In this document: in pieces, positions 2,131-55,716 of the stretch
Position numbering within the stretch: position 1 is the stretch's first letter
Layout of the letters: each line of letters begins with the position of its first letter
Assembly (NCBI GenBank): GCA_034406715.1
Contig: CP137871.1
Span: 248,001 to 312,000 of the forward strand
Direction: 5' to 3'
DNA from: Rhodotorula mucilaginosa
Lineage: Eukaryota; Basidiomycota; Microbotryomycetes; Sporidiobolales; Sporidiobolaceae
DNA length: 64,000 bases
Made by a program: the position numbers and the translations under genes
Notes under the pieces: generated by a model
The model's input: the letters and a program-made list of their open reading frames with translations, nothing else
Databases searched by the model: none
What the model was told of the DNA's origin: nothing

Positions 2131-2762
2131 CTCGGTTGACTGGAGATGGTGGAGGGAGAACGGGAAGCGGGTCGGCGGCATGAGAGCAGCCGCTACACAG
2201 CGCCCAGCGCCCAGCCAAGTTCTTCGGTCTAGCCGCGGAGGTGCGAGCGCGAAAAGGGGTCTCGGTGGCGGTGCTCGTTGGCACTTTGGCGGGCAAGCGG
2301 AGCAGTCTGCATCCGAAGTAAACTGCGGAGCACGCACCAGCGTAGCAGAGTAAAGCATCAGGAGCAGGGCCAGCAATGATCGTTGTCGGTGATGATGAGA
2401 CCAGAGGCGTTGGGCGTGACGAGTGAGCAAGCGGCGAGGGTGGTTCGGGCGACAGTCAAGAGCGGAACACAGCTCTGGTACCGAATCCGATTCGCATATC
2501 GTGACAGCAGGATAGCGTGAGCACAAGAGGTCGACTTTGAAGCGGCACGCGGAAGAGCGCCGCGAGGAAGAGGATGACGCTCTCCGAGAGCCGTAGAGAC
2601 GCTTGGAACGACGGGTCAGAGACGTGGATCCGGACCAGGGGAATCTACTACTACGACTAAGCCGATCGCGGCTTGACGACTCGCTGTGCCCGACTGCTCT
2701 TTGTGCTCCTTTCTCCCGACTCGACCTTGACCTGAGGACGTTCGGCTCTCCCTCAACACTCG
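2131..2762. promoter_or_regulatory. Divergent spacer between A1 and derlin
   Basis: No convincing gene. It holds the A1 promoter box at 2232-2251; the remainder is presumably the derlin promoter and 5' leader. Confidence 0.5.
2232..2251 (-). promoter_or_regulatory. Superfamily promoter box of A1
   Basis: Read on the gene strand this is GCGCTCGCACCTCCGCGGCT, about 100 bp upstream of the A1 ATG. The same 20 bases occur upstream of A2 at 10657-10676. It joins the GCGCTCGCACC element to the left half (TCCGCGG) of the dyad; the right half is degenerate here (CTAGACCG in place of CTTGTCCG). Confidence 0.65.
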
Positions 2763-4389
2763 ATGGACGGGATCGATGTTCCGCCCGTGACCAAGGCCTA
2801 CTTGATGTGAGCCCTGTTCGCAATTCACCCCTCCTCAAACGCAAGTCCGGGAGCGCCGCTGACCCTCGCCGTTCGGTTCGGATGTCGCGCAGCGGGGCAG
2901 TGGGGATCAGCGTCGCCGTCGTGAGTCGCTCAAGCGCTCTAGCGCCGATGTGACTGGAGAACCTTTCAGAGTCGAGCTGACCTCGGAGTCGACGCCGCGC
3001 AGCAATGCAACTTTGTCACGCCGCTCCAGCTGTACTTTACCTGGCGGACCGCGATTGAAAACGGACAGGTGCGTTCGCTTCGCCTCAAGTGCACCGTTCT
3101 TCGCGTTTGCGGAGGATTCCTACCGTCACTCTTCCAAAGCACCCCAAAGCTGACGCTGCGCAAACCCCGACCGCAGATCTGGCGGTTGGCGACTTGCTTC
3201 CTGTACTGGGGACCCCTCTCGCTCGATTTCTTCTTCCACCTCTTCTTCTTGTGAGTCGGCCGCGTCACCCGAACGCGAAGCTGCATGCTGACGATTCGAA
3301 TGAGTGCGCGGGGGATTCTCTTGCAGCATGCGATATTCAAAAATGCTCGAGCAGTCGACCTTTCACGGACGAAGGGCAGATTACGTCTGGCTCCTGGTCG
3401 TGAGCTGTACCATGCTCCTTGTACGCCACATACACTCTGGCGCTTGTGGTCTTTTGCTCTTTCATGTTAAGCTGATCACGGGGGCCCTCTGCAGATTCTG
3501 AGTCCGCTCAGCCCTTCGCCTTTCCTTTCCTCTCCCCTCTCCTTTACCGTGAGTGTTCCTCTCCACCTCCCCGCATCGAACGCACCCAACAAGTCGCCCA
3601 AGCGTCTTTGCGCAAAAGCACCCGGACTATTCGCAGTGATCCCCGCTGACCTCTCTCTTTCTGTTTCTTCTTTGCCTTTTTCCCGGCCGGCCGCGCCCGC
3701 ACAGCTCGTCTACCTCTGGTCCCGCCTAAACCCCCTCGTCCGCCTCTCCCTCTTTGGCATAATCACCATCACAGCCCCCTATCTCCCTTATGCTCTCTGC
3801 CTCTTCTCGTGGGCACTCTCTTCCGGCGAGCGATTTGGTGGCGGCGGTGGTGGAGGAGGAGGAGGAGGGATTTCGGGTTGGGGGTTGGGAGTGGTCGTGA
3901 GTGACTTGCTGGGGATCGCGACAGGTCATTGGTGGTGCGTACTATCCCCCCACTTCTTTGGCCGCTCTCTGCTGGATCCGAGTTTCAATTGGTGCCGCTG
4001 CACCGGACACCGCCGAAAGCGGACGCGCAAAACAATGCTACAACTCCAGCATCATATTGACTTCTAATCTGAACCAGGTACTTCTGGACCGAGATCTGGA
4101 CGCGGGAACGGGCATCCGGCGGCCGGAACTGGCTTGAAACGCCGCGATTCCTGTGCGTTTTCTCTTCGCCACCGGAGTTCCTGATTCCGGGAACCACGCC
4201 CAATCGCGCGCAGCTTTCTGACTGTCTTGTCGAGTCTACAGTGTCAAGTTGCTGGACCCTCCGAGCCGACTCGAGGAACTCGAAGCGGCGGACGCGGCCC
4301 GCGCAGCTGTCGCGCGCCAACTCGAATTGGATCGGTTGCGCCATCACAACGCAGCAGCTACCGCGGCCGCTCCCGATAGGACGCGATGA
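2763..4389 (+). CDS. DER1: Derlin (Der1-like ER membrane protein)
   Basis: Derlins are rhomboid-fold membrane proteins that help move misfolded proteins out of the endoplasmic reticulum (ERAD). Eight exons join in frame: MDGIDVPPVTKAYLIGAVGI, then VQCNFVTPLQLYFTWRTAIE, IWRLATCFLYWGPLSLDFFF, MRYSKMLEQSTFHGRRADYV, LVYLWSRLNPLVRLSLFGII, then VVSDLLGIATGHWWYFWTEI and the WLETPRFLVKLLDPP end before a coiled, Ala-rich tail (stop 4387-4389). The WR motif, the Q-W-R-L-x-T-FL-Y-GP segment and the DLLGIA.GH segment are derlin hallmarks. An unusual run of about eleven glycines (near 3837-3870) lies in the loop before the last membrane segment. Introns are short with CTGAC-type branch sites. Der1 and Dfm1 types cannot be separated by eye; the tail has no obvious SHP box. 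Confidence 0.93.
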
Positions 4390-5165
4390 CTCTGGCGGCC
4401 AGTACCTGCAAAGATCATGCCATGATTGTCCACACCTGTACAAGGGCTCGAGGCGCCCTCTCTCCCCGCGGTTCTTCATCCGACTTACTGCGCAGGCAGC
4501 GAATTCGGGTGCCCTTTCAGACCAGCTTCTTTTCGCTTGTTCTCCTACTATACTCCTGAGTTTGGCAAGTGACTGTGCAGGCCGGCGAGTTCGAGTACAG
4601 TATGCCGGAGCCAGGCACGTGATTGAGCTGCCCGCTGATCATCCGTGGCCAACCGTTTGATCACTGCTTTTTAATATGCAGCGAGACCGCGACCCCTACT
4701 GGAAGTGGGAAGAGTGCACTCTACTGTCCATAGAGCTCGTCTATGCCTGGGGTTTCTCGCGCAGCAAAAGCGCAGCGCGTGCCGCGAGCGCACCCCACTT
4801 TTTGTGCGTCCCGCGCGTCGATCTTTTTTCTCGGACCGTTGCGTCGACGGGGTGATCGAAGAAAATTAAGCGCGCTCACTTCTGTGAATTCAAAGTGGTG
4901 CCTCGAGCAGCTCGCGTAGAGCAAGCCGCCGCCACGCACGCTTCCCAGCTGCTGTGCTGTACGCCCGCATGCGTGCAAGACGAGACCGCTGCCGGAGAAT
5001 AGCTTGAGTGCCCTTTCGAACACGCTCAACTCGCTTGGAGCCCATCTGCCGCAGCCGCAACTTCGCCCCCCCTTGGAAGAACTCTCGAAAGGAAGGGCGC
5101 TACTGTACTCGCATTCACCTCCGCCGTGCAGCTACAACAGAGGCTTGGGCCAGTCGGGCGCCGCC
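4390..5165. other. Intergenic, derlin to receptor
   Basis: No gene or structured RNA recognised. It probably holds the derlin 3' UTR and the receptor promoter. Confidence 0.4.
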
Positions 5166-7004: not shown

Positions 7005-7050
7005 AAGTAAAAGATCTCTTTCTTCTCTTTTCGCTGCGGATCCTATGTAT

Positions 7051-9551
7051 CTACACCCAGCGCTTGTCTCCCAAAATCGCCTTTTCCTTCACCTCTTCCG
7101 TCGCCTCAGCGACTTTTTCCTTGCCGATCTGCGTCGCCTCTTTGATCTTTTGTTTGCCCGCTTCCGGGTCCGAAGTCGTCCCCGTCTGGACCTGCGCCGC
7201 CGCCGGATCCAACAGAGCCGCGATCGCCTTTTCGTCGAGGAGGACCGCCTCGGCCGGGACCGCGAGCGGGGTCTCGTCAATCTTGGGTTCCGGAGCCGTC
7301 CGGACAATCGTCGGAGTCGGCGCCGGGTTCAGAGGCGAGACGGATTTCTCTTCCGGCGACGACAACGGCGCCGCCGGCGCCGCCGGCGTGGGGATCGACT
7401 CGGCGACCGGTGCCGGGACAGGAGTCTCGACGGCGACCAACGGCGCTGCTACATCCTTCGGCGCGACGGCGACCGGCGCTTCGGCCGACTCGCTCGCGCT
7501 CGGCGCGTCCGTAGACTTGTCCTTGTCCGTCCGAGCGAGTTCCTTAAAGAGCGCTTCGAGTTCCTCCTTCGCCTCCGAGAGACCCTTCTCAAAGTCCTCT
7601 TTGCTTGGTTTGGCGGCGGACGAATCGACTGCGACCTCCGACGCGGGTGCAGGTGCAGGTGCGGGTGCGGGTGCAACCTTTTTCGGGCGACCAGAACCGA
7701 TCACGTCCTTCCACGCCTTGCCCTCCTTCTGCAACAACTCTGCGAGCTCGTCCTTGATCTTGCGGGGCAATCGGACACCGCCATAGACGAAGCCGGTATA
7801 GAGCTGCACAAGCGACGCGCCCGCCTTGGCATAGTCGAGCGCGTCCTGTCCGGACGAGATGCCGCCGCATCCGACGAGGGGGATCTTGCCGTCCGTTTGC
7901 TCGTACAAACCCGAGAGAGCACGGAGGGCGAGTTCTTTCACAGGCGGGCCGGACAGGCCACCCGTCTCTTGCAGGACGGTGGAAGTTCCCGCCGAGGCGG
8001 GACGCGAGATGGTCGTGTTGGAGACGATGACGCCGTCGACGCCCGAAGTCTTGGCCGCGTACGCAATGTCGGACAATTGCTCGTCGTCGAGGTCAGGGGC
8101 GACTTTGACGAGCACGGGCGGCTTGACCGACGTCGGGAGGAGGTTCCTCGCCTCGACGACCCCCTCCAACAACTCGGAGAGCATGCCCTTCCGCTGAAGG
8201 TTGCGCAAACCGGGCGTGTTGGGAGACGAGACGTTGACGACGAGGACGTCGGCGTACGGACCGAGGGCGGCGATCCCCTTGACAAAGTCGTCGATCGAGT
8301 CGGGGTCGCTGACCTTGTTCTTGCCGAGGTTGATCCCGAGCACCCTACCCGGCTTGAGCGACCGCGGCATCCCGACTGCATCAGCCGGGGCTGCCCCGGA
8401 CCCTTCCTTCGAAGCGAGGTACGCCTCGATCGGGTCAAACTCGGGCGAAACCGTCGGCGAGGACGGCGCTTGAGTCGGGAAGAGCGCGGGAGGGAGGAGA
8501 CTCGCATAGTCGGACACGAACTTGATGACGCGCTGTCGGAGGCGAGCGAGAGCGGCGGCGTGACCCTCCGAGTTGAACCCGTACCGGTTCACGACCGACT
8601 TGGAATCCTCGACGCGGAATACGCGCGGTTTCGGGTTGCCGGGCTTAGGCGAGGCGAGGCGGGCGTCAGCTTCGGGAGTGCACGGAGGAGGAAAAGGGGT
8701 GGTACTGCGACTCACTTGCGGCTCGGGCGTGATGCTGCCGACCTCGACGTAGCCGAATCCGAGGTTGAAGAGGCCGTCGATAGCCTCGGCGTGTTTGTCG
8801 AACCCAGCGGCGATCCCGATCGGGTTGTCGAATTTCTTGCCCCACAGCTGCGAAGACCAAAAGATCAGTATTTGAGATCAGAGAGCCAGGAAAAGGTGTA
8901 GTGCGCACCTCGAACGCGAGTCGCTCGTCGTCCTTGCCGCAGTCGACCGGACCGAGATTGCGCGACAAGATCTTGACGGCGATCTCGTGCGCGAGTTCGG
9001 GGTCGTCCTTGGTCAGAGCCATGAAAGCGGGCTGGATCATCCATCTGCTCGTGCAAAGAGCGAGTCAGCCTACCGCAACCGAGGAGAAACAGCAGGTGGT
9101 GGATGGGGACGCACCGGTGAATGCCGGCTCGCGAGTCGTACGCATAGACGAGCAAGGCGCCGGTTCCGAGGAAGAGGAGGGACGACATCAAGATAGATTT
9201 GAGCCGACTCGCGGCGCCCTTGCCTGCTGCTGCCGCGGCATGGTCAACGGCCGGAGCGGGTGGTGTCGTCGGTTTCGGAGCCTCGACTTGTGGCAGCTCG
9301 ACCTTGGGTGGCTCAGGAGCCTGAGCAGCTGGCGGCTTAGCTACGATTACTGGCTCTGCAGGCGCAGGCGCAGGCGCGGGCGGCAGCGGCTGAGTTGCAG
9401 TCGCACCACTCGGAGGCGGAAGCGGAGTCGTCTCCGGAGGCGGCAACGGCGTCGTCGCAGGCGGAGGCAAGGGCGGCTTGGTCGATTGCAGGCGAGCTGC
9501 GACGATGCGCCGCGAAGGCAGCGCCACCCGCTTGCTTGCTAACCGGAGCAT
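7051..9551 (-). CDS. DHODH: Dihydroorotate dehydrogenase, class 2 mitochondrial, C-terminally extended
   Basis: Oxidises dihydroorotate to orotate in pyrimidine synthesis, passing electrons to ubiquinone at the mitochondrial inner membrane. The N-terminus MLRLASKRVALPSRRIVAAR is a matrix-targeting type, followed by a Pro/Ala/Thr-rich linker and one membrane helix (LMSSLLFLGTGALLVYAY). Catalytic-domain segments follow: FDNPIGIAAGFDKHAEAIDG, the GFGYVEVGSITP motif, LGINLGKNK, NVSSPNTPGLRNLQ with the catalytic-region serine, VIVSNTTISRP and LVGCGGISSGQDAL. After the normal family end near LPRKIKDELAELL and GKAWKDVIG (about 7690) the frame stays open for about 210 residues: an Ala/Pro repeat, an acidic helical stretch, then KQKIKEATQIGKEKVAEATE and the stop at 7051. 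That tail is not part of the enzyme family. The gene is convergent with the receptor (46-bp gap). Confidence 0.93.
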
Positions 9552-10656: not shown

Positions 10657-10682
10657 GCGCTCGCACCTCCGCGGCTTGTCCG
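10657..10682 (+). promoter_or_regulatory. Superfamily promoter boxes of A2
   Basis: GCGCTCGCACC (10657-10667) runs directly into TCCGCGGCTTGTCCG (10668-10682), ending 83 bp before the A2 ATG. It is the clearest example of both elements side by side. Confidence 0.75.
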
Positions 10683-10765
10683 ATGTTCGCTCGCAACCCT
10701 CTAGGTCGCGTCCTTCCTATCCTCTCATCTCCCTGACCTTTTACCCTGTTCTCCTCTAAGCTCAG

Positions 10766-12985
10766 ATGCCAAAACGTCCTGCAGCTGGTTCAGGGCCCAG
10801 GCCCACGGGAGTCTCGAAACGGGACCCCCCTCAGCGTCGGAAGCGCCAAAGTTCATCTCAACCTGAGGACGCGGGACCAAACATTCCATTCAGCTCCATT
10901 GTCAGAACGCTAGTTGCACTGGTCGGCGAGTCGCTTGAACGCGGAAAAGACGACCCTCTGGCGGATCTGGGGGAGGCAATGGTCCAACTGTGGGCTGGGC
11001 CTTTTGCTCGATTGGTGGGCCGCGTCAGCACTGGCAATCACTCATACGCTAGGAGCCGTGGCCTTTTCAGAGACAAGTTGAATGAGCTCCGCGACGCGAT
11101 CGTGGCTATCTGCCATGAACGGCAAGAGCCGTCGAGGCGCTTGAAAAGGTTTGTCAGCAAGCTAGTAAGTCTCCTTTTTGCCTCTGCTTCTGTGGAAGCA
11201 GTTGATGAATCAGATCCTTTGCAGCAAGAGTTCTTGTTCACAAAGCTGTCCAAAGACTTGGTAATGTTATGCAGCAGAGCTCCTTCGGCTGACCTGGCGA
11301 AAAGCTGACCGCTGGCAGAGAATTGACACAGCACTGGGTCACAATTGCGGGCACCTACGCAACAGAGGCAAGGACGGCAGACAACTTTGCCAGGGCAATA
11401 ATTGGAGCTGAAGATCTTAAGAGCATCCGCATCCCAGCAACTGATGATCTATTCAGCTGGGGTCTCATATTGTTCAAGGTTTGGAAGGATAAGCTCACCA
11501 AACTGACCAAGGAAGCCGTCTTGGACACAACACACACTGCTACCCAAATATCCCTGGAGGAGCGGAGTGAGGGTATAAGTACGCAAAGAACAGAAGCAGA
11601 GGAAGAACAATGCCTGAAAAGATGGAGACTCTGGCTCAAACGAGAAGTCTCAAGGGAGGAATATGAGGGTCGCACCCAGCAGGGTTGGCAGGGGTGGCTT
11701 GAACGGCTTTACCTCTGTGTCCAACAAACAAACATCTACTGGGAAGGGCACCAGGATGCAGCACGAGGAAGAAAGGAAGCTGTTGAGCTCATTGTGGGCC
11801 ATTTTCTTTCTTTCCACAGCGCGTGCAGGCACTTGACTAACTCTGCAAGATCTCTTCAGCTCAGATACCAGAACAAGGAGCAGATTGTCAGTGAGGTGGT
11901 AAGTGTGGTGCTGGCATTGCAGCCTCATGCGAGAGGTTCCTGCACTGACTGTTGATTTTGCATTCACGCAACAGGAAGCTTTGCAAAGACGCATTGACAG
12001 ATGCAAGGTAGGTTGCCTGTTGGCCTTACAACAGTTGACTGACTGGACCAGACTGATTGGTGCTAACAAGCAATGATGCAAAGGCGCGGGCGCACGCTGC
12101 TCACCCAACAAGTCCACATGATCCTGTGACAACATCAGGAGCACCTTTCCAGGCTATCCCTCCACCACATGTTCATCCACTTGGTGGAGACGAGCCGTTT
12201 AACCCGGCGGACCCTTTCGCTTTTGTATGTCTGACTTCTCTTACAAGCACTCGCTCTTACTTTTCTGTTCTGACTGTGAGGCATTCCTGATGCATCGAGT
12301 ACTAATGCCCCATGCGGAATTTCCTGTTTTTCCATTCCTGCAGGGTTCCCCTGGTTCTTTCTTTCCCCATGATCCACATGCAACCAATTCTTCCGAAGAC
12401 TCCCACATGTCTACCCCCAACTACCATGGTGCGCTTCCATTTTTACCACCTCCTTCATGCCTCACTAATGACAGCAGCCTCCTGCTTGCCAGCTGGTTTT
12501 GTTCGACAGCCCCAAGGTCACGGCGGGGGGGCTCTGCTCCTTGGAGGTGACCACTTGCAATCATCTGGTGGCAATCCCTACATCCCAGACAATAACCAGT
12601 ACTTTCCTGTTCAACACTCAGGTGCGCTCAAATTCCTGGTGGATTCTCCTCCCCAAGTGCAGTTGCTCACAGGGTCTGTGTCTGCTCCATAGCGGGATTT
12701 AGCGGACTTTCTCAAGCTTGTCAGCTTCCCATGTATCCCATGGAGGGAACAATTGCAGGCAACCAGGACACATTCCCCTTTTTGCACAACAGAGCGCATT
12801 CAGCAGCAGCCAATCAAGCCTTCAATCAACAGGGACCAATGGCGACATGGGACCCCAGGACCGGATACGGGGATCCGCACTCAGTGGGTCACGGACCACC
12901 CATTGCGCGCCGGATTGCTCGCAAAGTCTATGGCATTCAAGATCCAGAGGCGTGGACCCGCAGGGCTGGCTTGTCACTGTTGTAG
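10766..12985 (+). CDS. Superfamily member A2 (unknown function)
   Basis: Not recognised as any known family. Exon 1 (10766-11164, 133 codons) starts with a basic Pro/Arg/Lys-rich stretch that could be a nuclear signal, then VQLWAGPFARLVGRV and RRLKRFVSKL, matching A1. The 36-nt exon at 11225-11260 reads QEFLFTKLSKDL. Exon 3 starts HWVTIAG after a GACACAG acceptor and contains NFARAIIGAEDLKSIRIP and a long helical, charged stretch to about 11900. A 33-nt exon (EALQRRIDRCK, 11973-12005) and Pro/His/Gln-rich exons follow. The last exon ends PIARRIARKVYGIQDPEAW plus nine residues (stop 12983-12985), the A-type closing box. Internal 3' splice sites between 12000 and 12700 are approximate. Promoter boxes lie at 10657-10682. 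Confidence 0.7.
11225..11260 (+). other. 36-nt micro-exon of A2
   Basis: QEFLFTKLSKDL, between a TTTGCAG acceptor and a GTAATG donor, phase 0 on both sides. Confidence 0.7.
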
Positions 12986-16304: not shown

Positions 16305-17893
16305 CTATGCACTACCCCACCGAGCTTGCCAAGAGCTCGGAGTGATTCCATATCGCCGCTGCGCCCGAAGTCCGATACGAGCGTGTGCAAGGGACCGGAG
16401 CCGACGCATGGGATCATTGGGAAGGAGGACGTCGAACGGATTCACATACCCCGACTCTTCCGTGCTCTGTGGGTATTGGTTTCCACTTGATACAGGTGAG
16501 TGCACCTCTGGTGTTGAGGTGTGAACCGGAGGCATTGGCGTTGTAACAGCGAAGGGTGCAAGGATCGAAACCACTTGACTCGCAGATAGTAAAGGGGTTT
16601 GCTCTGGGGTCACCAGCTGCCGGTACCAGCGTGCCTTCAGCCAGGCTGGCCGGGAGGATGTCTGAGCATCATGCTCAGCATTGTAGCTGCCAAAGTCGAA
16701 GGCAGGATTTGCTCCGAGCTGTTGTTGACGTTTCGAGTCAGTCTCATCGATTAGGAAAAAATCAAGAGGGCACGGATAGTGCACGGCCAACAAAAAACAC
16801 CGCACAGGTTGTTGGATGATGAACATAGGGGTCCACATGGTCTGCAGAGTGAACAGCCATCAGCGCCGGACAGATAATCTGCCTGGGAAAGGCATTCCAA
16901 CTCACGTTGATGTCCAGCAAAGCTCTTGCCGGATCTTGCGAAGCGTAGCATCCCTGGATGGCGAGGTGGATGTGTCTGAAGGTCCCGGCTAAGCTTGATA
17001 GCTCCACATCTGAAAGATAGTCAGAGAGCGGTTCTGCTTCGCGCTTTAGCGCAGACGCCCATTCTTTCAGGTCCGTGCTCATGGCAGCTATCGCGGTGCC
17101 GGACTTGCGGATTGCTGTGAAAAGATCTCGACAAAGTTCACTTGATCGCCTTTTGGACTCGTCCTTGAGATAAAGTCGGTCTGAAAAGAAGGCATGGAGA
17201 GCATTCCAGAACGCAACCGCCTCCTCTTTGACCTTTTGCTCCGCACTTTGTGCAACTTCTGCCTCTCTGACTGTTTGCTCCTGACTTTGAGAGTCGACAG
17301 TAGGTGCAGTACCCGCTCTGTTGGGCACTACCCGGTGACCATGTTGACGAGCAACTTCGTGCTCCTGCAAAAAAGCAAAATCAGTCAGTAGGAAAACTGG
17401 GTTTCAGGCAGTGAACGATACAAACAATGTGGGCGAGCAAGATACTCATGTCAATCTTGAGCTGTAAAATAGAGGTAGCAGTCAACTGGTCCGCCAGAAT
17501 TGACCATACTCAGGCGTGAAAAAGAAAGAGTCTGCTTACCACTTGCTGCAAGACGTCAGTGCGCGGGATCCGGCCGTCATTCAGAGCGACCTCCAGACAC
17601 TGCCGTTTCTCCCCCAGCCAGCTCGTCAGTTGTTGCCTCATAGCAATTTTATGGCTCATGAGGTCTGCCTTTTTCCTGTTTCTGTTGAATTTGCTTGACT
17701 CGGCAAGAAAGGTTGCGTGCGCTGTGTCGTACCACTTGACCAACCTGACAGTTGTCTGGTCTGTGCTTTTGTGCGGATTATGCCATCGCTTTCCAAGGGC
17801 GAGCTCTGCGAGAGCTTGAAGAGGAGCCCTGACCTCGAAGTGCGTACTGGTCTGTTTCAGGTCGCTGAAATGGTGCTCGGCAACAAGAGGCAT
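16305..17893 (-). CDS. Superfamily member B1 (unknown function)
   Basis: Not recognised. Start MPLVAEHHFSD at 17893. Exon 1 holds RLVKWYDTAHATF, a charged helical stretch, LTSWLGEKRQCLEVAL and the IPRTDVLQQV end before GTAAGC. The 36-nt exon at 17426-17461 reads LKIDMSILLAHI. Exon 3 starts EHEVARQHG and carries KVKEEAVAFWNALHAFFSD, then ELSSLAGTFRHIHLAIQGCY, a helical stretch. The last exon has LGANPAFNFGSYN, RPAWLKARWYRQLVTPEQTP and ends IGLRAQRRYGITPSSWQARW. The same layout recurs in B2, B3 and B4. It is first in a head-to-tail array of three, with upstream boxes at 17973-18031. The long helices suggest an intracellular, non-secreted protein; no signal peptide, membrane helix or catalytic motif is visible. 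Confidence 0.7.
17426..17461 (-). other. 36-nt micro-exon of B1
   Basis: LKIDMSILLAHI between TTTTACAG and GTTTGT, phase 0 on both sides. Confidence 0.65.
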
Positions 17894-17972: not shown

Positions 17973-18031
17973 GGTGCGTGCGCGGCTGAAGTCGAAGAGA
18001 AAAAAGGCCTCATTCCGCGGACAAGCCGCGG
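17973..18031 (-). promoter_or_regulatory. Superfamily promoter boxes of B1
   Basis: On the gene strand the full dyad CCGCGGCTTGTCCGCGGA is at 18014-18031, 120 bp before the ATG. A near copy of the second element, GCGCACGCACC, is at 17973-17983. Confidence 0.7.
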
Positions 18032-19879: not shown

Positions 19880-19924
19880 TCCGCGGACAAGCCGAGACTT
19901 TTTCTCGAGCTCGGGGTGCGTGCA
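19880..19924 (-). promoter_or_regulatory. Superfamily promoter boxes of B2
   Basis: On the gene strand CGGCTTGTCCGCGGA lies at 19880-19894, about 100 bp before the ATG. A weaker relative of the second element (GTGCACGCACC) is at 19914-19924. The rest of the 655-bp B2-B3 spacer shows nothing I recognise. Confidence 0.6.
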
Positions 19925-20435: not shown

Positions 20436-21983
20436 CTACGCCCATCGAGCCTGCCACAACTCCGGCAAGATCCCGTATCGCCGCTGCGCCCGAAGTCCGA
20501 TATGAGTATGGGCAAGGGACTGGGGGCGACGTGTGGGATCAAGGAGGACCTCGAGCGGATTCACATACTCCGACTGTTCCGTGTGCTGTGGGAATTGGGC
20601 TCCACTTGATACAGATGAGTGCACCTCTGGCAATGGGGTGCGCCTTGTAAGCATTGCCGTCGCAACAGCGAAGGGTGCAAGGACTTGCGCCACTTGACTC
20701 TGGTCAGACAGTGAAGGTGTCTGCTCGGGGGTCACCAGCTGCCGGTACCACCGCGCTTCAAGCCAAGCTGGATGCGTCATTGCCCGGGCATGTGCATCGT
20801 TCTGGGTGTCATAGGCGGAAAAGTTGAACGCCGGATTTGCTCCGAGCTGTAATTCCATTCGAGTTCGTCAGCGAGGGGCAACAAGACGGAGGAAGATTGA
20901 GTGACGGGAGCATTGACCGCACACATCGTCGAAAGATGAACTTGATTGTCCAGAATTTCTGCAATGCGAGAGCAAATGGTCAGAACCACGGAAGACACCA
21001 GAAAGAGAAAGCAGTTCCTGACTGACAGCCACCCGCAAAGCTCCGGTGGCATCACGCGAGGAGCGGCACTTCTCCAACGCAAGGCAAAGGTGTTCCAAGG
21101 TCCAGACTAAGCTGGATAGTTCGGCCGGTCGAAGGTGCTCCAGAAAAAAATCTGCTTGTCCGGACAGCGAAGAAGCCCAATCGGACAGTTCCTTGTCTGC
21201 GCCTTGTATGGTGTCGACGACGGAACAGATCTTGGAACAGATCATGGCAATACTTGTCCGAGTCCTTTGGACCTCTTGTGGGCCTGAGGTAGTCAGGATT
21301 TGCCCGTCACAGCGTTCGCGCCAGAGTGCTGCCTCTACCTCCTTGTCTGGCTGCTCCGGAGTCTGTGTTGTTCCGGACGGAGTCACAGGCGCAGCATTGA
21401 CTCCGCTGGACAGCAGCTGTCCTGTGCCGGCGCCGTCGTGGCGATGATGAGCTTCTTGATATACCGACTCTTCCTGCCAGTGGCAAAGTCAGCGAGTAGC
21501 AGCCTCGAGAGCTCTTCTTCAAGCTGGCACCGACAATACGTGAGAGCAAAATGCTCATATCAATCTCCAACTGTAGCGCCATAGGACCACTCAACCGGTC
21601 AATCAAAACAGATTGGGCACCTGCGCGATTCATACTGAGCTTACCACTTGCTGCAACACATCGACGCGAGGGATTCGGCCCTCATGTAAAGCAATTTCCA
21701 GGCATTGCCGTTTCTCAACAAGCCACTCCTTCAGCCTTGTCCGCACAGCAGTATAATCAATCCCTGTCCCTGTGTAAGTATCTCTGTTCTTCCTACGAAT
21801 GGGTCCATACGCCCATTCGTACCATTGAACCAGAATTCGAGTGGTCGCGTCGGTGCTCTCGCTGCGGCGCTGCCATGCTTTCCCGCAGGCGAGCTGTGCG
21901 AGCGCTCCCAGCGGACCTCTCATGTCGAGAGTCCAACCTGTCGGTTGAGAATCGCTGAAATGGTACTCGTCAAGTAGAGGCAT
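20436..21983 (-). CDS. Superfamily member B3 (unknown function)
   Basis: Start MPLLDEYHFSDSQPTGW at 21983, closely matching B1. Exon 1 has RGPLGALAQLACGKAW, ILVQWYEWAYGPIR, RLKEWLVEKRQCLEIALHEG and RIPRVDVLQQV before GTAAGC. The 36-nt exon at 21535-21570 reads LEIDMSILLSRI. Exon 3 opens EESVYQEAHH and contains DKEVEAALWRERCDGQI, ADKELSDWASSLSGQADFFL and ELSSLVWTLEHLCLALEKCR. The last exon reads LGANPAFNFSAYDTQNDAHA, THPAWLEARWYRQLVTPEQT and ends IGLRAQRRYGILPELWQARW. The closing exon shares a 26-base identical stretch with B1, so this pair is recent or has undergone gene conversion. Function unknown. Confidence 0.7.
21535..21570 (-). other. 36-nt micro-exon of B3
   Basis: LEIDMSILLSRI between GCTACAG and GTCGGT, phase 0 on both sides. 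Confidence 0.65.
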
Positions 21984-22463
21984 TGCCGGGGCAGTATGAC
22001 CCTAGTGAAGGGAAAGAAGGGTGAGGTGCGGAGACAAGGAGCGCGAGCAGCGACGGCTTATGAGGCAAAAAAGCGGTGCGAGCGCGCGCGCGAGCGAACG
22101 TGCGCACGCATGCGTGGCAGGAAGCCGCGCTTTCCCTTGCTTTTGGAGTTTCACGCCGGATTAAGCGAGCGGTCGGCTCAGTCCGGGTCGAGAGAAGTTG
22201 ACCTCTCCACGGTCGAGATTGCTGGCGTAGATAAGCCCCGCTGTAAAATCTGTTTTCCTTTTTCAACCAAATCGAATAAAGAGCAGTGCATGCGCCACCG
22301 AGGAAAGTTTGCTTCAGGAGGGGGATAGGCCGAGCGACCCAAAGAGAGAATTTACAGCTGTTCGCATTTCAAAAAGCCGCAGCGAGGGTCAGTCACAGGT
22401 TTATGACCGGCGAGGATCGTACAGGGAAGTAAAGGATTGCCTCGGTGCACGCACCTTTGACCG
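21984..22463. promoter_or_regulatory. Spacer with B3 promoter box
   Basis: On the B3 strand GCGCTCGCACC lies at 22075-22085, 91 bp before the ATG. A degraded dyad half (GCGCGGCTT) lies near 22120-22130. The rest is without a recognised gene and also serves as the 3' flank of the aminotransferase. Confidence 0.5.
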
Positions 22464-26978: not shown

Positions 26979-27624
26979 GGTGCTAGGTGGGTTTGCAGGC
27001 AGTCTGGGCGCAGGCCGTACTTCCAAATGAGCTCCTCGAGAGTCTAGAGCGATGCGGATGAGCGAGAGCCTCGTTCGGGGCTCGTTCGTCCAACATTTGA
27101 CGATGACGCTCGAGCGGCTTTCCTCTCTTAAAGCTCGGGGCAGAATCTATCGCGGCCATATACTTCCAGGGAATCGCACGGCTCTGCTCGTCCAGCTCCG
27201 GTCTCCCGATCTGCTATGCTCCGACCGCCACCAATCAATCTCATCATCTCGCTGTCTCCTGCTTTGACCGCTTGCGCACATCACTCTTGTTGCCGAGGCT
27301 AAGTTTCAGCTTTGACTGGCTCTCGGAGACGTAACGCTACGCTTGCTCTCTCGTGACGAGCCAAGGGAGCTGCTGGTCGAGCCGAAGAGACAGCCGACGC
27401 AGGCCGCTCCTCCGCTTGTGTGTACGGTTGCAGATTTGACTGCCCCGTACGGTGCGGCAAACGGCATGGCAAAGAAGCTGCAGCTTGGACGTCTTCTGTA
27501 CGTGCTCGAGGCGGTACCACCCGTCCATCCGCGGCATGTCCGGTCGTTCCTCCCTAAACAACCCTCTCACCTGCTTGCTCTTAACTTCTACCTTGTGACA
27601 GAACTCTGCAGCACCCGAAACAAC
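26979..27624. other. Divergent spacer, DnaJ-X to A3
   Basis: Presumed promoters. Only a weak remnant of the superfamily dyad (CTCCGCTTGTG near 27408) is seen, so A3 is the one copy without convincing boxes. Confidence 0.4.
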
Positions 27625-29705
27625 ATGGAGCCCACAAAGGCAGACCACCAAGAACCAAAGCGGCTGACCATGCGCCAAGTCGTCGCCCAGCTAGTTCTCG
27701 TGGTACCCAAGCGATCGAGAAAACCGGGCATGGACGCCGACCCGCTCATTGAGAGGCTCAACACGGCCTTACTGAACTTGTGGTCGCGGCCATTCTACGT
27801 ATTCATCGAATCTCATCGTAGAACGCTTTCGTTCAAACGGGCATCCGCACGGTTTGAAGACGCGTTGCACCGGCTCTTGTCCAACTTTTTCAAGATCAGA
27901 TCCGCAGATATGACCTTGGGGGACAAGCTGCGGCAGCTTGCACAGCTCTTGGTACGTCTCCACCAGTCGGCTTTATTCCGTTTGCCACAGCAAACCTCAT
28001 TCAAACCTGATCTAGACCTCCTCGACAGAAAGAAACCAACTTCAAGTCCATGGCCGCACACCTTGCACGTCTCTATGTACACTTTATGACCAGACAAGGT
28101 GCTGATAGAGCTCTAACATAGAGCTGGCCGGCCGATGACGTTGCTTGCAGAGACGCTGAGAACGGCATCCGTTTCGCTGATCAGCTGTGCCAAGCCCCTG
28201 ATTTGAGCCAGATCAAGATACCATCCGGAGCATTACCGGAGAGGCCTTGTTACAAAACATGGCGTGATGATTTCCGTCTCCTGGCCTTGATCAGTGCATT
28301 GGGCCTCAAGTCCGGTAAAGATGTCATTGCTGATGAAGAGAAGAACGGTGCAGTTTTTGACCAAGCGAAACCTGGCCTGCACGAAGAGATGCGTGCATGG
28401 TATGACACAATGAGGCACAAACTTGCAGCGGAATACAACAGCCTCAGCCCGGATCAGGCCTGCATGTGGAGGCAGTGGAACAGGGACATGTGGAAAGCAG
28501 TGACCGCCGTTCGTCAAAAGGTGCCAGACTTGGATGACAATGATGACACCAGGTCAGAGGAACGACGCATTCTTGTTGCGGCAAACTTTGTGGTACGTTA
28601 CTCCTTGATCGCTTCTGGATCAAAAGTGCAAAAGCTGACCCACGGACTTCCAGCTTGCCCACGAGTTTGTCACAGCGGAACAGCCTCCAGCTGTCTGGTC
28701 TGAGGCGGCAAAGCATGCATGCTTGCGGGATGGTGCACTGAGTTTGGAAGACGTGGCAGAGCTGCAGGGAAATCACCCTACTCCGGCTTCGACTCAGGCT
28801 CCTACACCGGTAAAGATTCTCCATCTTTACTGCTTTCGCTTTTGTAGCTCACACTTTTTGAACATGCACAGTCAGTGCAGAGCCCTGAGGGGGTAACCTT
28901 GCCGCATGTGCAAGTAAAGAATCAAGCTCGGGTGTGCCTTGCACCTTGCAATTGACGGAGATGCCCTGCCACGAGTCAACTGCTGACCCTTCCCTACCTC
29001 AGGAGGATGTTCACAACATGCACGACGTTCTTGGCAGTTTGCAGCACCAGCTTTGGCTCACAGTCTTTATCTACCCACTTGGTGACAACCTTTACCCCGA
29101 GAAATCACTAGTGGAACGCAAACTCGACAGTGTCCAGTCCGGTCTTTACTCCAAGCTCCAGGATTGCTATTCCCGCTTCGCTTCCCACTTTCAGGATGCG
29201 GAGCGAGCCGGCACCCTCATAAATGAAGCGGCTTTCTGGCTGGGATGGATGCGAAGTCTGCGTCAACACCTCATCAGGATTCGGGAACGAACAACCAATA
29301 TTCCCAATGATCAAGCTTCCTTGGCAACATGGCGCACTCAATGCGCAGCAAATTTTCTTGTGAGGGTCCTCTCTATTTGCAGCCAGTCAGCTTGCTCAGC
29401 ACTGACTCAAATCTGTACAGCTTCGGAACCTTGGCAGCCGTGGGGCACTGGACAAGGCAGTGGCTGAGATTGTGAGTTGTTCCCTCATCTTTCAAACCTG
29501 CGCGCTTGCGCTTGCTGATACAGATCACGGCTGCCCCTAGTCCCAAAGAGTTCAGCAGAGGCAACACTCCGTGCACCAAGGCCTGCTTCAGTCACTTGGC
29601 AGTGAGCCGCGCATTGCCCGACGTATCGCGCGAAGGATCTACGGGTGTGATCCGGACAAATGGGCGGGAGAACGCACTTCAGACTTGCCTGGACAGAACC
29701 TCTGA
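27625..29705 (+). CDS. Superfamily member A3 (unknown function)
   Basis: Not recognised. Exon 1 from 27625 (MEPTKADHQEPKRLTMRQVV) has LLNLWSRPFYVFIESHRR and KLRQLAQLL, then GTACGT. The tiny exon at 28029 reads KETNFKSMAAHL. Exon 3 starts SWPADDVACRDAENGIRFAD and contains LSQIKIPSGALPERPCYKTW and AKPGLHEEMRAWYDTMRHKL. A short exon gives LAHEFVTAEQPPAVWSEAAK; the next has LQHQLWLTVFIYPLGD, SVQSGLYSKLQDCYSRFASH and AGTLINEAAFWLGWMRSLRQ. The last reads QSLGSEPRIARRIARRIYGC, then DPDKW and a stop at 29703-29705. It shares the TA..PPA.WS and LWLT..YPLG blocks with A4 and A5, so these three form subgroup A-II. Confidence 0.7.
28029..28064 (+). other. Micro-exon of A3, 36 nt or extended
   Basis: KETNFKSMAAHL aligns with A4 KKQNLGDIAAEL and A5 EENNLKVIARQL. 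Ending at 36 nt would need a GC donor (GCACGT); a GT donor lies 12 nt further (GTACAC at 28077) and also keeps phase 0. The acceptor is CGACAG. Confidence 0.5.
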
Positions 29706-43480: not shown

Positions 43481-43515
43481 CGGACAAGCCGCGGACTTGG
43501 AAGAGGTGCGAGCGC
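43481..43515 (-). promoter_or_regulatory. Superfamily promoter boxes of A4
   Basis: Gene strand: GCGCTCGCACCTC (43503-43515), then TCCGCGGCTTGTCCG (43481-43495), ending 90 bp before the ATG. A partial second dyad (CCGGCTTGTC) lies at 43521-43530. Confidence 0.75.
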
Positions 43516-44399: not shown

Positions 44400-46490
44400 C
44401 TACAGGCGGTCATGCTCCCACTTGTGTGGATTCATCCTGTACACCTTCCGTGCAATGCGGTGAGAGATTCGTGGCTGGCTGCCAAATGACTGAGCTGATC
44501 CTCCCTGATGGCTGGAGGAGGAAGGTCCAGCCACTTGGCTCTCTTGCTGCGCATGTTGCCTCCGGATGCGGTCTCCCTATAATTTCAGCCATGTTTTGGG
44601 TTTGTGCGTGTGTCAGTGTTGTCAGCCAAATCCAAAAGCTGGCAGCCATGTAGATGCCAGAAATACCGCCGTACTATCTCCCTCGAAACCTTGTCAAGGT
44701 CAAGGTTATAAAGCTGCGTGCAGGCCAAGTCAGCATCTGTGACTGAGGTATTGCTGGAAAATGGTAGACTCACTAGAAGGCGCGCTACCTGGAGAGTTGG
44801 CCAAGACTCATGTTGACGAAATTCCGGAAGAAATTTCTTCTTGATTGCTGTCTGCAAGCTTTGCATCCATCCTGTCCAGTATTTTGCTGCTTCAATTGTG
44901 AGATTGCCAGCTTGCTCGGCAGCCTCCAGGTGGGATACAAAGTCAAGGTATCCCTGCTTGAGCTCCTCGTAGAGACCCCGCTTGAAGCTGTCGAGGGCGT
45001 CTTGCAGCTGTTTGGTGTCAAAGTGATGAACTTTGTCGCAGGTAGGCCCAAGAGGGTACACAAGACAGGTGAGCCAGAGGTTGCGCTTTAGAGTACTGAG
45101 CTTGCGATGCAGGCCAAATGTGTTTGCCTGCAGGAGAAGGTGAGCTGGACGTGAGCTGTGCAGCCTTGTAAATCAAATCATGAGACCAGTCTGCTGCGTG
45201 ACAAATTGGTCTGCCCCAGCATGGCCACATATTCTTATGTGCATTTGAAGTCCCAGAGAAAGAAGTGTATCAAGCTCACTGCAATGTTTCCTCTTTGTAA
45301 GTCCGTGAGCGCGTGATTAGGATCCCTGCCCATTGCAGTCAAGCAGACTTGTGTTGCTGCCTTTGACCAAACTGCTGGAGGTTGTTGAGCGGTGACAAAC
45401 TGGTGTGCGGACTATATGCAGCCTCATTTGGTAAGCCTCAAAGTTCAACACTGTATGAACAGGGAGTAAAAAGACTCACCACGAAAGAGGCGGCAACTCT
45501 GACTTGGTCGTGTCTTTCCGTACACCTGTGGATGCCTTTGACTACATTCTTTATGTCCTCTATCCCCTCTTTCCAAGCCCATTGTTGAAGGGGGCTCAGG
45601 TCTTGATATGTCTGAAGGCCGGTCAGGAAGCGAGAATGCCAGTCCTTCATCTTCTGTCCAAGTTCTTCGCCAAGGCAGATATCATTGAGATATCTGATCA
45701 CTTCAGCCTTGCTGGTGGTGCGCGGTGCTTCAGTGCTCAGTATGTTCTCAAAAGCCAGCTTCTTCAGGCCAATGCGCCAAGTTTGATGGGTGATTGGTTG
45801 CCAGAGTGCGTCATCTGGAATGGTGACAGTCTTCAGGTTGTGCGCACTCCTAAGCGTGCTGCTCCTAAGCGTGCTGGCAAACTCTGTGCCAGCTTGAATA
45901 GCTTCATCTGGAAAACTGTCACTGAACCATCCCTGTTGCCAGGGTCAAATTGAATAGGGTCAAATTGAATCAGTAAACTCTGCTTCCCCCGAAAACAGAT
46001 AACTGACCCGCACCAGCTGCCTGGCAATGACTTTGAGATTGTTTTCCTCCTGCAAACATGCTCCAGTCTGAGTCCAGCTCCCACTTTATGGAGACCAAGC
46101 AGGTTTTGTATGAGACATGGCAGTGACGGAAGAACACACCAGGAGCAAGGCAAAGCGCTGGAGCTTGTCAACTGCAGTCATATGCGTATTGAATTGGATG
46201 TCTTCACTTTGCCATACAATCAACTGCAGTTCAAGATCGAAGCAATTCCTGTGAGCAGGGCGCCACTGTTTCCCAGTCAGACTGGGTAAGAATTCAATGA
46301 TGGGTCTTTGCCACAGCTCCACTGCAACCGCGGCAAACTGTATAGCAAGCAGCTGTTCTTCGACTTGTCCTGAAGCCGCGTCTTGTCCCGGAACCGGCTT
46401 GACCACATCTCGTAGCTGTGTGACCGCCATGTGCAACAGGTGGGCAACGTGCCTTGTTGCCGCCGTCCATCTCCTGGCCCCGGGTGCCAT
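44400..46490 (-). CDS. Superfamily member A5 (unknown function)
   Basis: Not recognised. The start MAPGARRWTAATRHVAHLLH at 46490 is followed in exon 1 by VVKPVPGQDAASGQVEEQLL, VAVELWQRPIIEFLPSLTG and KLQRFALLL, then GTGTGT. The micro-exon at 46014-46049 reads EENNLKVIARQL; exon 3 opens GWFSDSFPDEAIQAGTEFAS. Later blocks: DLSPLQQWAWKEGIEDIKNV, RVAASFVV, AHQFVTAQQPPAVWSKAATQ, STLKRNLWLTCLVYPLGP, ALDSFKRGLYEELKQGYLDF, GNLTIEAAKYWTGWMQSLQT and the last exon AQSFGSQPRISHRIARKVYR plus MNPHKW (stop 44400-44402). Its frame looks open throughout, unlike A4. Head-to-tail with A4, promoter dyad at 46582-46596. Confidence 0.7.
46014..46049 (-). other. 36-nt micro-exon of A5
   Basis: EENNLKVIARQL between TTTGCAG and GTGCGG, phase 0 on both sides. 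Confidence 0.7.
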
Positions 46491-46581: not shown

Positions 46582-46596
46582 CGGACAAGCCGCGGA
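46582..46596 (-). promoter_or_regulatory. Superfamily promoter dyad of A5
   Basis: Gene strand TCCGCGGCTTGTCCG, ending 91 bp before the ATG, the same distance as in A4. No good copy of GCGCTCGCACC was seen next to it. Confidence 0.7.
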
Positions 46597-46641: not shown

Positions 46642-46687
46642 GGCTGTGCTGCAGCTGTGGCTGTGCTGCAGCTGTGGCTGTGCTGCC
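46642..46687. repeat. 17-bp tandem repeat, 2.7 copies
   Basis: Unit GGCTGTGCTGCAGCTGT repeated twice and then in part; exact over the copies seen. Confidence 0.85.
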
Positions 46688-48969: not shown

Positions 48970-49106
48970 GAGGAATGCGCCCGTTCCTGTCCCCGTGCTC
49001 GCTAGATCTCCTCCCTTCGAGACCCCACCAGAATTTGTCAAATATTCTCAATCTTCGTTTGATGCAATATACTATCGCAGTATGAATCCCTTCGAGTGGT
49101 TGGCGA

Positions 49107-49126
49107 AGAGAGAGAGAGAGAGAGAG
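49107..49126. repeat. (AG)10 run upstream of threonine aldolase
   Basis: Simple repeat about 100 bp before the aldolase ATG; spacer otherwise empty. Confidence 0.85.
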
Positions 49127-49223
49127 ACGCCACACGAGCTCGGCATGCGCGGAAGAGCTGCAGTTTTTTTTTTGGGCACACGAGTTGAGCGAGATCTAGG
49201 CCCCGTTGGATTGGGACAAGTGT

Positions 49224-52362: not shown

Positions 52363-55026
52363 ATGTCGACGAATCCCGCCCCGCACAATCCTCCAGGCGG
52401 CCAAGCCTCTTCCTTTGCTGCCATGAAGGAACAAGTCGCGCGCGAAAAACCCACCGGCAGCGACGAGAAGCGCGAACTCGCCGGCGACGACAGCTACGTC
52501 GACTCGAGCGCCGGCGCAAAGGAGACCCGCGCCAACGCGCTCGACAACCCCTTGACAGGCATTTCGCTCGACCGCCTCGAGGCGATGGGGCGCGCGTTCG
52601 CTCGCGAGAAGGGACTCGGAGAGTTCGAGCTCGAGTTCGCCAAGGGCGCTCAGGCCGCTCAGGACGCGACCGTTACCGACTTGCCCCTTCTCGACGAGGA
52701 AGACCGCGAGGTCATTCGTCGCGAAGTCACGCACAAGTGGAGTCATCCCAAGACTGTACGTTCCTTTCTATCGCGGAGTTTCGACTTGACTGTGCGGCGC
52801 AAGTCGAGACCTGACTTCGCCCCGTTCTTTTCTCCGCAGCTGTACTTTGTCGTCGTCGCTTGCAGTATGGCCGCCGCCACGCAAGGTATGGACGAGTCGG
52901 TCACGAACGGCGCCAACCTGTTCTGGGCGCCGCAGTTCGGTTTGATCACGGCGAAAGGCACTCCCGGTGCCTCGAAGAACCAATGGCTTCTCGGATTGAC
53001 GGCCGGGGCGCCGTACCTCTGCTGCGCCGTGCTCGGGTGCTGGCTCACCAGTCCCGTCAACAAGGTCATGGGTCGCCGCTACGCCATGGCCCTTGCGGCG
53101 GCGATCTCGTTCATCGGTTGCATCTGGTCCGCGTGCGTCAACAGCTGGCAACACTTGCTCGGAGCTCGTTTCTTCCTCGGCATCGGAGTCGGTCTCGGCT
53201 CCGCCACCGTCCCCGTCTTTGCCGCCGAAACCGCTCCGCCTCTCATCCGTGGCGCGCTCGTCATGCAGTACGTACTCTCCGCTTGAGCTTCTCCGTCATG
53301 TTACCGAAACTGATAGGTGCTTCGCCGCCCAGGTGGCAAGTCTGGACTGCCTTTGGCATCATGCTCGGAACAGTCAGCGGCCTCGCCTTCTACCACGTGC
53401 CCGACCCGGCGAGCGGCAACATCACCGGGTTGAACTGGCGCATCATGCTCGGCTCGGCCATCTTCCCCTCGATTTTCGTCATGGCATTTGCGCCCTTCCT
53501 GCCCGAGAGTGTAAGTGCTTCTTTCGTCTCCCGCTCTCGCTGATGTCACGAGCTGCCGAACTGACACGGAAGGTCTTTCCGGAACAGCCTCGTTGGCTCA
53601 TCGGCCGCGGGCGCTACGTCGACGCTTTCAATTCGCTCTGCCGTCTCCGCCACACCCGACTCCAGGCCGCCCGTGATCTCTTCTTCATCCACGTTCTCCT
53701 CGAGGAGGAAGCCGCCGTTGCGACGGGCAGGTCGCCCCTCGTCGAGCTCTTCGCTGTCGCCCGCAACCGCCGCGCGGCATTGGCCTCCGGCATTGTCATG
53801 TTCATGCAGCAGTTCTGCGGCATCAACGTTATCGCGTACTACAGCTCGACCATCTTCCGTGAGGCCGGCTTTAGCGAGATTTCGGCGCTCGGTGCCACTC
53901 TCGGTTTCGGCGCACTCAAGTGAGGAGCCCCTTTCTTAGCTCCCAACAAGCACAGGTCCGCTGACACCCTCGTTTCTTGCACACATCGCAGCTGGGTCTC
54001 GGCCGCTCCTGCTCTGTTCACGATCGACTCTTACGGTCGTCGCGTTCTCCTCCTTTGGGGCTTCCCGCTCATGGCCATTTTCCTCCTGCTCACCGGTGTT
54101 GCCTTCCTCATCCCGAAGGAGAGCACGGCGCACATCGCCGTCGTCGCACTCGGAATCTACCTGCACTGCATCGCGTACTCGCCGACCGAGGGTGAGGCGC
54201 TTTTTTTCCTCCTGGAGGACCGACCTTCTTTGGCTAACTCGTCCTTCTGTTCTTCCAGGACCGGTTCCCTTCACGTATTCCTCTGAGGGTGAGTCGAATT
54301 GTCGTCCCTTTTTACAACCTTGGCTGACCACTTCTCCCTTCCCTTTTTCCCCCTCCTTCTTTGCGACCACTTCTCCCTCCTCGTTCCCTTTCTTTCCCCG
54401 TCCTTCTTTACAACCTCTCTTGACCGCCTCTCTGCCTCCCTCTCCTTTGGGAGGGATCAGCTTTCCCCTTCTACATTCGAGACGTCGGCATGTCCTTCGC
54501 GACTGCGACCACTTGGTGCTTTAGTGCGTCCAGCTTTTTTCCGCTTTCGCCGTCTCTTCAGCTTTTAAAAGCTGACAAGCCTGTGCTTCCAGACTTCATC
54601 GTCGCGCTCACCTTCCCGCGTCTCCTTGACGCCTTTACGCCGACCGGCGCCTTCCTCTGGTACAGTGGTTGTGAGTCTGCCCTCTTCGGTATCTGTCTCC
54701 CGCGCCGCAGAAACTGACTCTTGCTGGGAAAAGGGTGCTGGATTGGCGCGGTGCTGGTCCTCTTCTTCGTCCCCGAGACTCGCAACCTCACGCTTGAGGA
54801 GCTCGACCAAGTCTTCTCCGTCCCGACGATGCGCCACGCCAAGTACCAGCTTTCGGGCACGCTGTGAGTTCCCCTCCGCGACGATCAGGTCTCCCGACCC
54901 CGCTGACCTTTCTCCTCACCTTTTCTCGTCTGCAGCTACGCCTTCCGCAAGTACATCCTCCGTCAGCACTTGCCTCCGCGCCAGCCTTTGTACCTCTGGG
55001 AGGACAAGATGGCTGTCCGCTACTAA
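52363..55026 (+). CDS. MFS sugar/polyol transporter (SP family)
   Basis: Proton-coupled sugar or polyol carrier of the plasma membrane. A hydrophilic N-terminal region of about 130 residues (MSTNPAPHNPPGGQASSFAA...) precedes helices: LYFVVVACSMAAATQGMDES, QWLLGLTAGAPYLCCAVLGC, NKVMGRRYAMALAAAISFIG (the GRR motif between helices 2 and 3), LGARFFLGIGVGLGSATVPV, AAETAPPLIRGALVM, PRWLIGRGRYVDAF (PESPRWL-like), IVMFMQQFCGINVIAYYSST, FTIDSYGRRVLLLWGFPLMA (D-x-x-GRR), YSPTEGPVPFTYSSEAFP, MSFATATTWCF and VPETRNLTLEELDQVFSVPT (PETK-like). It ends YAFRKYILRQHLPPRQPLYL. QQFCGINV replaces the hexose-carrier QQ.sGvN motif, so the substrate is open. About nine introns. Confidence 0.9.
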
Positions 55027-55716
55027 AGACTCCCAAACTGGCCCCTCTTCCCTCTCCTGTGCAGACGATCCTTGCTTCCCCGTCTCTCGTTCTTTCTTCC
55101 CCTTGCAATCATTTTGATAATCTTTTTCAAGTCTGCCCCGGCTCGCGCCTGGAAGCTAAGAACATCTGCTTGGCGTGAAACATCCTTTTGGATCCCTTGA
55201 AGCTGTTCTGCGAGAGCTTGTGCTGGTTCAGACTCCCCTCTCTCCATTGCCACTCATAGCTCAAGACTCTACCTGCGCTAACTGCCTTGTATGTGGCAGC
55301 CGAGCTGCTCTTGCTGTGTAAAGTCTGTGCCGATTCCATCGTCCGACGTGGGCATAGCCTTCTTACGGGCCAGCGTCTTGTCAGCCTGTCGAAGGTGTGC
55401 GCATATTCGCCTTCTGACCCGGTCGAGCGACTCTGTCCGCAGATTGTGCTCAAGGAGACGATTGTCCCTACGACGAGCACATCCCCCTGCGCAAGCCCTC
55501 CGTGGGTGCGAGCGCCGAGCCCTCTCCGCGCGGCTTGTCCGCGGACTCATGGTGGCTATCGCCGCATTTGGTTTGTCCGTGCGCAGTTTGTGTTCTTTCT
55601 TCTGCTCTCTCTCTTGCCAAAGTCTGCAGTGTACCGACAAGGCCTCGCCTTCTTTGATCCTGCAAGGGCGCATACCCTCCTTCGTCCTCTGGCTGAGCGA
55701 GCTGGATCGCCGAATC
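55027..55716. promoter_or_regulatory. Spacer with B4 promoter
   Basis: No gene recognised apart from possible upstream frames. It holds the B4 dyad and a GGTGCGAGCGC element at 55505-55515. Confidence 0.5.
55505..55545 (+). promoter_or_regulatory. Superfamily promoter boxes of B4
   Basis: GGTGCGAGCGC at 55505-55515 is the second element in reverse orientation. CGCGGCTTGTCCGCGGA at 55529-55545 is the dyad, 171 bp before the chosen ATG. An earlier ATG at 55549 would put it inside a leader peptide. Confidence 0.65.

Follow-up and report, generated by a model that had tools for sequence, protein, structure and literature searches.

The stretch of DNA analysed here, which we call the window, is 64,000 nucleotides long and corresponds to C8:248001-312000 in a Rhodotorula mucilaginosa genome of 20.35 Mb and 19 contigs. 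It holds nine family genes, of type I (A1 to A5) and type II (B1 to B4). The gene models are mechanically predicted ORFs, and the labels were reconstructed from those of an earlier note on this DNA. The predicted first exons, or the start codons alone for the two genes in which no candidate donor was found (A4 and B2), lie as follows.

1786..2130, minus strand: A1 exon 1, type I, ATG at 2130, candidate donor GTAAGG after codon 115
10766..11164, plus strand: A2 exon 1, type I, ATG at 10766, ends at a candidate donor
17540..17893, minus strand: B1 exon 1, type II, ATG at 17893, ends at a candidate donor
19780, minus strand: B2 start
21645..21983, minus strand: B3 exon 1, type II, ATG at 21983, ends at a candidate donor
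27625..27951, plus strand: A3 exon 1, type I, ATG at 27625, ends at a candidate donor
43390, minus strand: A4 start
46140..46490, minus strand: A5 exon 1, type I, ATG at 46490, ends at a candidate donor
55717..56058, plus strand: B4 exon 1, type II, ATG at 55717, ends at a candidate donor

All but one of these genes share a short promoter element. Its exact core, CGGCTTGTCCG, has six copies in the 64 kb, all of them in family promoters and oriented like the gene that follows: +10672 (A2), -18018 (B1), -19884 (B2), -43481 (A4), -46582 (A5) and +55531 (B4). The probability that all six cores would fall by chance on the right strand inside nine 400-nt promoters is about 5e-10. This exact scan agrees with the earlier note, which had placed the core upstream of these six genes and nowhere else in the window, and the distance of 90-91 nt to the ATG that it gave for A4 and A5 was measured as claimed. 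Counted from the start of the core, the ATG lies at 93 nt in A3, 94 in A2, 101 in A4, 102 in A5, 114 in B2, 135 in B1 and 186 in B4. The complete elements are the following.

2225..2239, minus strand: A1 element, of the TCCGCGG-N5-CCG form, spacer altered to CTAGA; sequence TCCGCGGCTAGACCG
10668..10682, plus strand: A2 element, TCCGCGGCTTGTCCG
18014..18031, minus strand: B1 element, the sole site of 94 with both outer triplets
19880..19894, minus strand: B2 element, CGGCTTGTCCGCGGA
27528..27542, plus strand: A3 element, TCCGCGGCATGTCCG, with an altered spacer
43481..43495, minus strand: A4 element, TCCGCGGCTTGTCCG
46582..46596, minus strand: A5 element, TCCGCGGCTTGTCCG
55531..55545, plus strand: B4 element, CGGCTTGTCCGCGGA

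The count of eight genes out of nine, which had been given for two boxes taken together, holds for the main element alone, with a different set: A3, which had been left out, carries TCCGCGGCATGTCCG, and B3 drops out, its promoter being alone among the nine in lacking the main element. Ordinary genes stand between the family members, namely those for a dihydroorotate dehydrogenase (7051-8715, minus strand), a CNH-domain protein (32791-33993, plus strand) and a sugar transporter (52363-53286, plus strand), and they are without any of the window's six cores. The best named matches of the dihydroorotate dehydrogenase ORF are from Rhodotorula dairenensis and R. pacifica, at 83%, and rank below unnamed proteins at 86-93%.

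A second box, GCGCTCGCACC, is found in several of the same promoters.

2240..2250, minus strand: A1 second box, GCGCTCGCACC, directly adjoining the A1 element
10657..10667, plus strand: A2 second box, GCGCTCGCACC
17973..17983, minus strand: B1 second box, one mismatch, between the element and the ATG
22075..22085, minus strand: B3 second box, GCGCTCGCACC
43505..43515, minus strand: A4 second box, GCGCTCGCACC
55505..55515, minus strand: B4 second box, GCGCTCGCACC, in the opposite orientation to B4

All the copies previously described could be recovered, the one at B1 with one mismatch; the loose form of the box is less specific, because copies with one mismatch are also found at 21895, 43467, 50023 and 59807. 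By itself, GCGCTCGCACC is weakly enriched genome-wide (75 copies vs 44). For nine of these 75, a core is no more than 60 nt away, vs 0.12 expected, and six of the nine are outside the window; the second box therefore looks like a true companion of the element. At A2, C8:246936, C8:78511 and C3:1436601 a distance of 15 nt separates box and core, and their order is the same in all four; at C2:1491913 it is reversed. Order and orientation are both variable. A partner factor acting at the second box is possible.

Form and orientation of the element

The element is about 15 bp long and is made of three CGG/CCG triplets: an inverted CGG-N5-CCG pair and one more triplet abutting it on one side. The resulting forms are TCCGCGG-N5-CCG (left) and CGG-N5-CCGCGGA (right), and exactly one extra triplet is present in 76 of the 94 distinct sites with flanks. 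The left CCG alone is found in 27 of them, the right CGG alone in 49, neither in 17 and both in just one, an exclusion with a Fisher p of 5e-11. The 19-base dyad that had been proposed as the unit has to be given up, as it is a merge of the two 15-base forms and, with at most one mismatch, fits B1 only.

Both forms come down to a single layout, TCCGCGG-N5-CCG, in which the spacer is read in either direction. This layout has 433 matches in the genome vs 85 for the reverse control, and the version with a 4-nt spacer has 104 vs 67; of the two spacings compared, that of 5 nt is preferred. The spacer itself is conserved in a way that marks direction. When oriented, it ends in GT in 67 matches out of the first 100 listed (of 433), for 12-13 expected (there are 68 counts for these 67 matches, one spacer having been scored both ways). 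Its consensus is [C/G][T/A]TGT, with CTTGT the commonest sequence, and when CTTGT is left out the GT ending is still found in 32 of 65 matches listed. In eight variant sites, 12 of 40 spacer positions differ vs 3 of 80 triplet positions, in a hand count on sites chosen for their likeness.

Of the sites, 71 have flanks of 500 nt on each side. In 50 of these, an ATG-initiated ORF of at least 90 aa begins at a distance of 70-215 nt to one side or the other, vs 38% of random positions; the remaining 21 have no such ORF at this distance. A global orientation bias was looked for in this set and rejected, with 30 sites forward vs 22 backward (p 0.33); the 10:0 orientation seen in a random sample is an artefact, because just about 250 nt upstream were covered for those 20 sites. 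Orientation is fixed only in the A/B genes (13:0). Outside these genes, left-form sites lean forward (11:2), and right-form sites count 9 forward and 16 backward (p 0.23).

A fixed orientation in the A/B genes and the closeness of the ATG are what one would expect if the element acted in RNA, as a hairpin of the 5' leader or as a protein-binding site. We regard this as scarcely credible, as a hairpin needs both CCGCGG arms, which occur together in a single site of the 94 and which leads us to reject the full hairpin, and as the orientation is opposite in other families.

The A/B family and its promoters across the genome

The core CGGCTTGTCCG has 259 exact copies in the genome, spread over 18 of the 19 contigs, vs 32 copies of the reversed pattern; it is therefore neither a product of chance nor private to the window. 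To relate these sites to the family, the statistics rest on protein searches, as loci L001-L040 were mostly chosen for having sites. The genome was searched with one family query per type, blind to the element and with E up to 1, which gave 17 matches for type II and 11 for type I; both queries had been found via the element, and they are excluded from the 26 exons scored.

An exact core lies within 400 nt upstream of 13 of these 26 family exons, 13 times in the orientation of the gene and never in the opposite one. The ceiling for other genes is 4%, reached by giving every one of the 259 sites to a different gene and assuming 6,500 genes, and the difference has a p of 4e-12. Outside the window the exact core is found in 10 of 20 family exons (p 1e-9). 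The enrichment upstream of the family that the earlier note had asked about is thus real and far above that of other genes. Seven of the 13 exons without an exact core (ten with promoters from the genome outside the window and three from the window) carry the 15-mer with at most two mismatches; among 3000 stretches drawn at random from the window, not one has such a copy. In one more of the 13, C8:222146, every triplet is intact. A recognisable element is absent in 5 of the 26: B3, C8:458705, C8:378879, C8:225371 and a doubtful match on C6 (E 0.5). A B-type member at C8:467446-467742 has one in-frame TGA and is perhaps a pseudogene; its element is also decayed (CGGCTTGTCCACGGC).

The sequence around the element has changed much more. 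When 15 family promoters are lined up at their cores, which are identical because the promoters were selected for them, the bins more than about 4 nt away show an identity of 0.24-0.35, close to that of chance, with the maximum in the bin 45-62 nt downstream of the core. The element has therefore outlived most of the sequence that surrounds it. This bears on the idea that it was merely inherited with the duplicated genes, without selection. The form does follow the subfamily: nine of ten scorable type I sites are of the left form, and all 11 scorable type II sites are of the right form (Fisher p 3e-5, hand count; two type II sites, B1 with both flanks and a copy on C2 with neither, were set aside), and the close pair A2 and C8:246936 is alike at 39 of 40 nt around the element. 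Mere inheritance is nevertheless very improbable in our judgement, since family members are only 17-50% identical to the first of the alignment, with promoters otherwise little alike, and since the element also precedes families without detectable homology.

Whether types I and II are themselves related is a question of their proteins. A C-terminal motif, R-x-x-x-R-[RK]-Y...W, is present in six of the nine window genes (A4, A5 and B1-B4); it is absent from A1-A3, from the family members examined outside the window and, with two stricter patterns, from the other loci, and the reversed control gave 0. Of 18 A/B-type genes, 16 have a candidate phase-0 donor (GT[AG]NG), with 109-133 codons before it. 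The predicted helices of exon 1 are at residues 10-29, 43-70, 78-99 and 106-117 in type I (mean pLDDT 74) and at 22-33, 46-68, 77-100 and 106-114 in type II (mean pLDDT 67), and these four-helix layouts agree, at low-to-moderate confidence. The motif, the exon-1 end and the predicted layouts favour an old A/B superfamily. Profile comparison of exon 1 between A and B gave no significant homology (hhalign probability 0.4% and 0.1%), exon 1 had no PDB match at E 0.001, and no Pfam domain exceeded the cut-off in 10 A/B ORFs.

Two family queries had one homolog each in 5.8 billion proteins, a search whose length and word filter may miss fast-evolving relatives. A family protein encoded just beyond the window matches an R. 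mucilaginosa hypothetical protein, with 94% identity over 89 residues. The public R. mucilaginosa protein C6P46_003086 begins at residue 224 of the family ORF L022:3352-4392, and its annotation may lack the 5' exons, or the gene may differ between strains.

Other orphan families and arrays

The element is not exclusive to the A/B family. Besides its 259 exact copies, a random draw of 20 among the 182 sites outside the examined stretches gave three clear A/B-type genes (L045, L049 and L051), the others being unassigned, and other orphan families carry it too; the element therefore marks a wider set, made of several orphan families, mostly in arrays, and of other genes. For the same reasons, the view that one regulator would be the private switch of the family is not supported.

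About seven further orphan families are preceded by the element, in addition to the A/B genes and other genes. Several of them read opposite to CTTGT, with TCCGCGG-ACAAG-CCG pointing to the gene and the ATG 76-191 nt away. With types I and II, this makes nine families, some with just 2-4 members and one locus (L034) put in family VIII by eye. Compared pairwise, the nine exon-1 families have no significant profile similarity, the best pair being VI-VIII at 2.5% and the others being below 1%.

Several of the arrays are very regular. At C12:76488-88798, six exact cores stand at an exact spacing of 2,462 nt; this is a tandem array of orphan genes with one element per unit, whose unit ORFs in L028 are 100% identical. 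At C4:516000-525999 (L016) and on to C4:530015, a unit of 4,692 nt is found three times as judged from site spacing, each unit with two oppositely oriented elements, and the ORFs are 100% identical between the two units compared. The clusters at C4:25500-35400 and C4:48000-57900 (L037 and L038) hold an orphan family whose proteins have W-x-[IV]-Y close to their N-terminus, and the 44 nt around their elements are 89-91% alike. An association with paralog arrays would also suit a silencer or chromatin-boundary site keeping tandem orphan arrays off, a role that we find very unlikely, as in the cases seen there is one promoter-proximal copy per gene and not per array, and as the element stands at single genes too.

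A more serious alternative is a general factor of promoter architecture, which would clear nucleosomes or act at the core promoter like the general regulatory factors of yeast, without any family-specific regulation. The sites are indeed on nearly every contig, and ORFs unrelated in sequence lie close to them; when 88 of the 512 ORFs of at least 150 aa around sites were scanned against Pfam, 14 families were found, each in one ORF, with no shared domain; and the position about 75-190 nt before an ATG would fit. We consider such a factor unlikely all the same: the sites could serve at most about 4% of the genes assumed, vs the 50% of the family that has an exact copy, and paralogous ORFs are found near different cores in 13 of the 20 loci examined that lie outside the window and hold at least two cores. 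These include C12:36-106k, C7:22-32k, C3:1055-1062k, C3:1470-1480k, C7:1103-1113k, C7:1183-1193k and C4:25-58k; no such ORFs were found in the other seven (L001, L002, L010, L013, L034, L035 and L040).

The putative regulator and its regulon

The enrichment of the element, its position, its spacing preference, its conservation in diverged promoters and its spread over several families are direct observations. The explanation that we prefer, and that we hold to be probable, is that of a promoter element of the zinc-cluster type, which would act on a regulon with many lineage-specific orphan genes, often in tandem. Zn2Cys6 (Gal4-type) proteins are the class known for recognising CGG/CCG triplets at a preferred spacing in fungal promoters, and their known sites mostly have two triplets. 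The present element resembles such sites in its paired CGG/CCG triplets, in its spacing preference and in triplets that are better kept than the spacer; in the 259 sites the CGG-N5-CCG is there by definition of the search, and the variants found through proteins keep most triplet positions. It differs from them in having three triplets and a conserved, direction-marking spacer (SWTGT).

From these features we infer that a protein binds the element, that it is a zinc-cluster factor and that the genes are co-expressed. A fungal Zn2Cys6 factor, or two related ones, would bind about 75-190 nt before the start codon and, once bound, would set the transcription of a regulon in which the A/B genes of the window are one family. 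One factor for both forms and two paralogous factors, one per form, have equal standing. Zn2Cys6 domains number at least 20 in the genome, and those listed all lie outside the cluster (C8:192-330k), so that a regulator encoded inside the cluster was rejected. More tentatively, a single switch might have captured much of the tandem orphan repertoire, with about nine fast-evolving families, among which no kinship is detectable, turned on together. The families would then have acquired or kept the three-triplet element, like antigen or effector repertoires under a master regulator.

The nearest described sequence is the pleiotropic drug response element of Pdr1/Pdr3, given in the accessible part of its source as TCCGCGGA and TCCGTGGA (PMC5539612). 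As far as that text goes, the right form, CGGCTTGTCCGCGGA, contains its TCCGCGGA exactly (PMC5539612), which is a likeness and not a claim of membership. Unlike the Pdr1/Pdr3 element in that text, the present one has a characteristic CGG 5 nt away, and its left form reads TCCGCGGC; TCCGCGGA occurs in the right form only, with the extra CGG at N5. No transporter-type domain was found in the 10 A/B ORFs or among the 14 Pfam families in 88 ORFs, which is a weak test, the ORFs being unspliced and taken from both sides of the sites. Closer to the organism, the available portions of two papers deal with promoter motifs of Rhodotorula DAO1 (PMC4624585) and with motifs mined from R. toruloides RNA-seq (PMC9853887), which are likewise promoter elements near the start codon, in the same genus or close kin. 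The DAO1 consensus sequences in the accessible text do not resemble the present element (PMC4624585), and the main text of the other paper, as available, contains none of the strings CCGCGG, TCCG and CGGA (PMC9853887).

Among the literature matches listed, no report of the element or of the families was found, which does not show absence from print; the string CGGCTTGTCCG is in one of the papers listed, on SIRT6 and TFAM, and the titles retrieved with element strings are off subject apart from yeast drug-response papers. A zinc-cluster-like regulon element is of a known kind; what seems to be new in this one is the form with three triplets and the occurrence at orphan arrays that are unrelated to one another.

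Orphan families are usually found by sequence and, once diverged, cannot be tied together. Here, the element is still readable after the proteins have become unrecognisable, and it links about nine such families, which suggests one control factor reaching several fast-changing gene families at once. It provides a handle for finding the regulator, the condition in which these genes work, and further members of the families.
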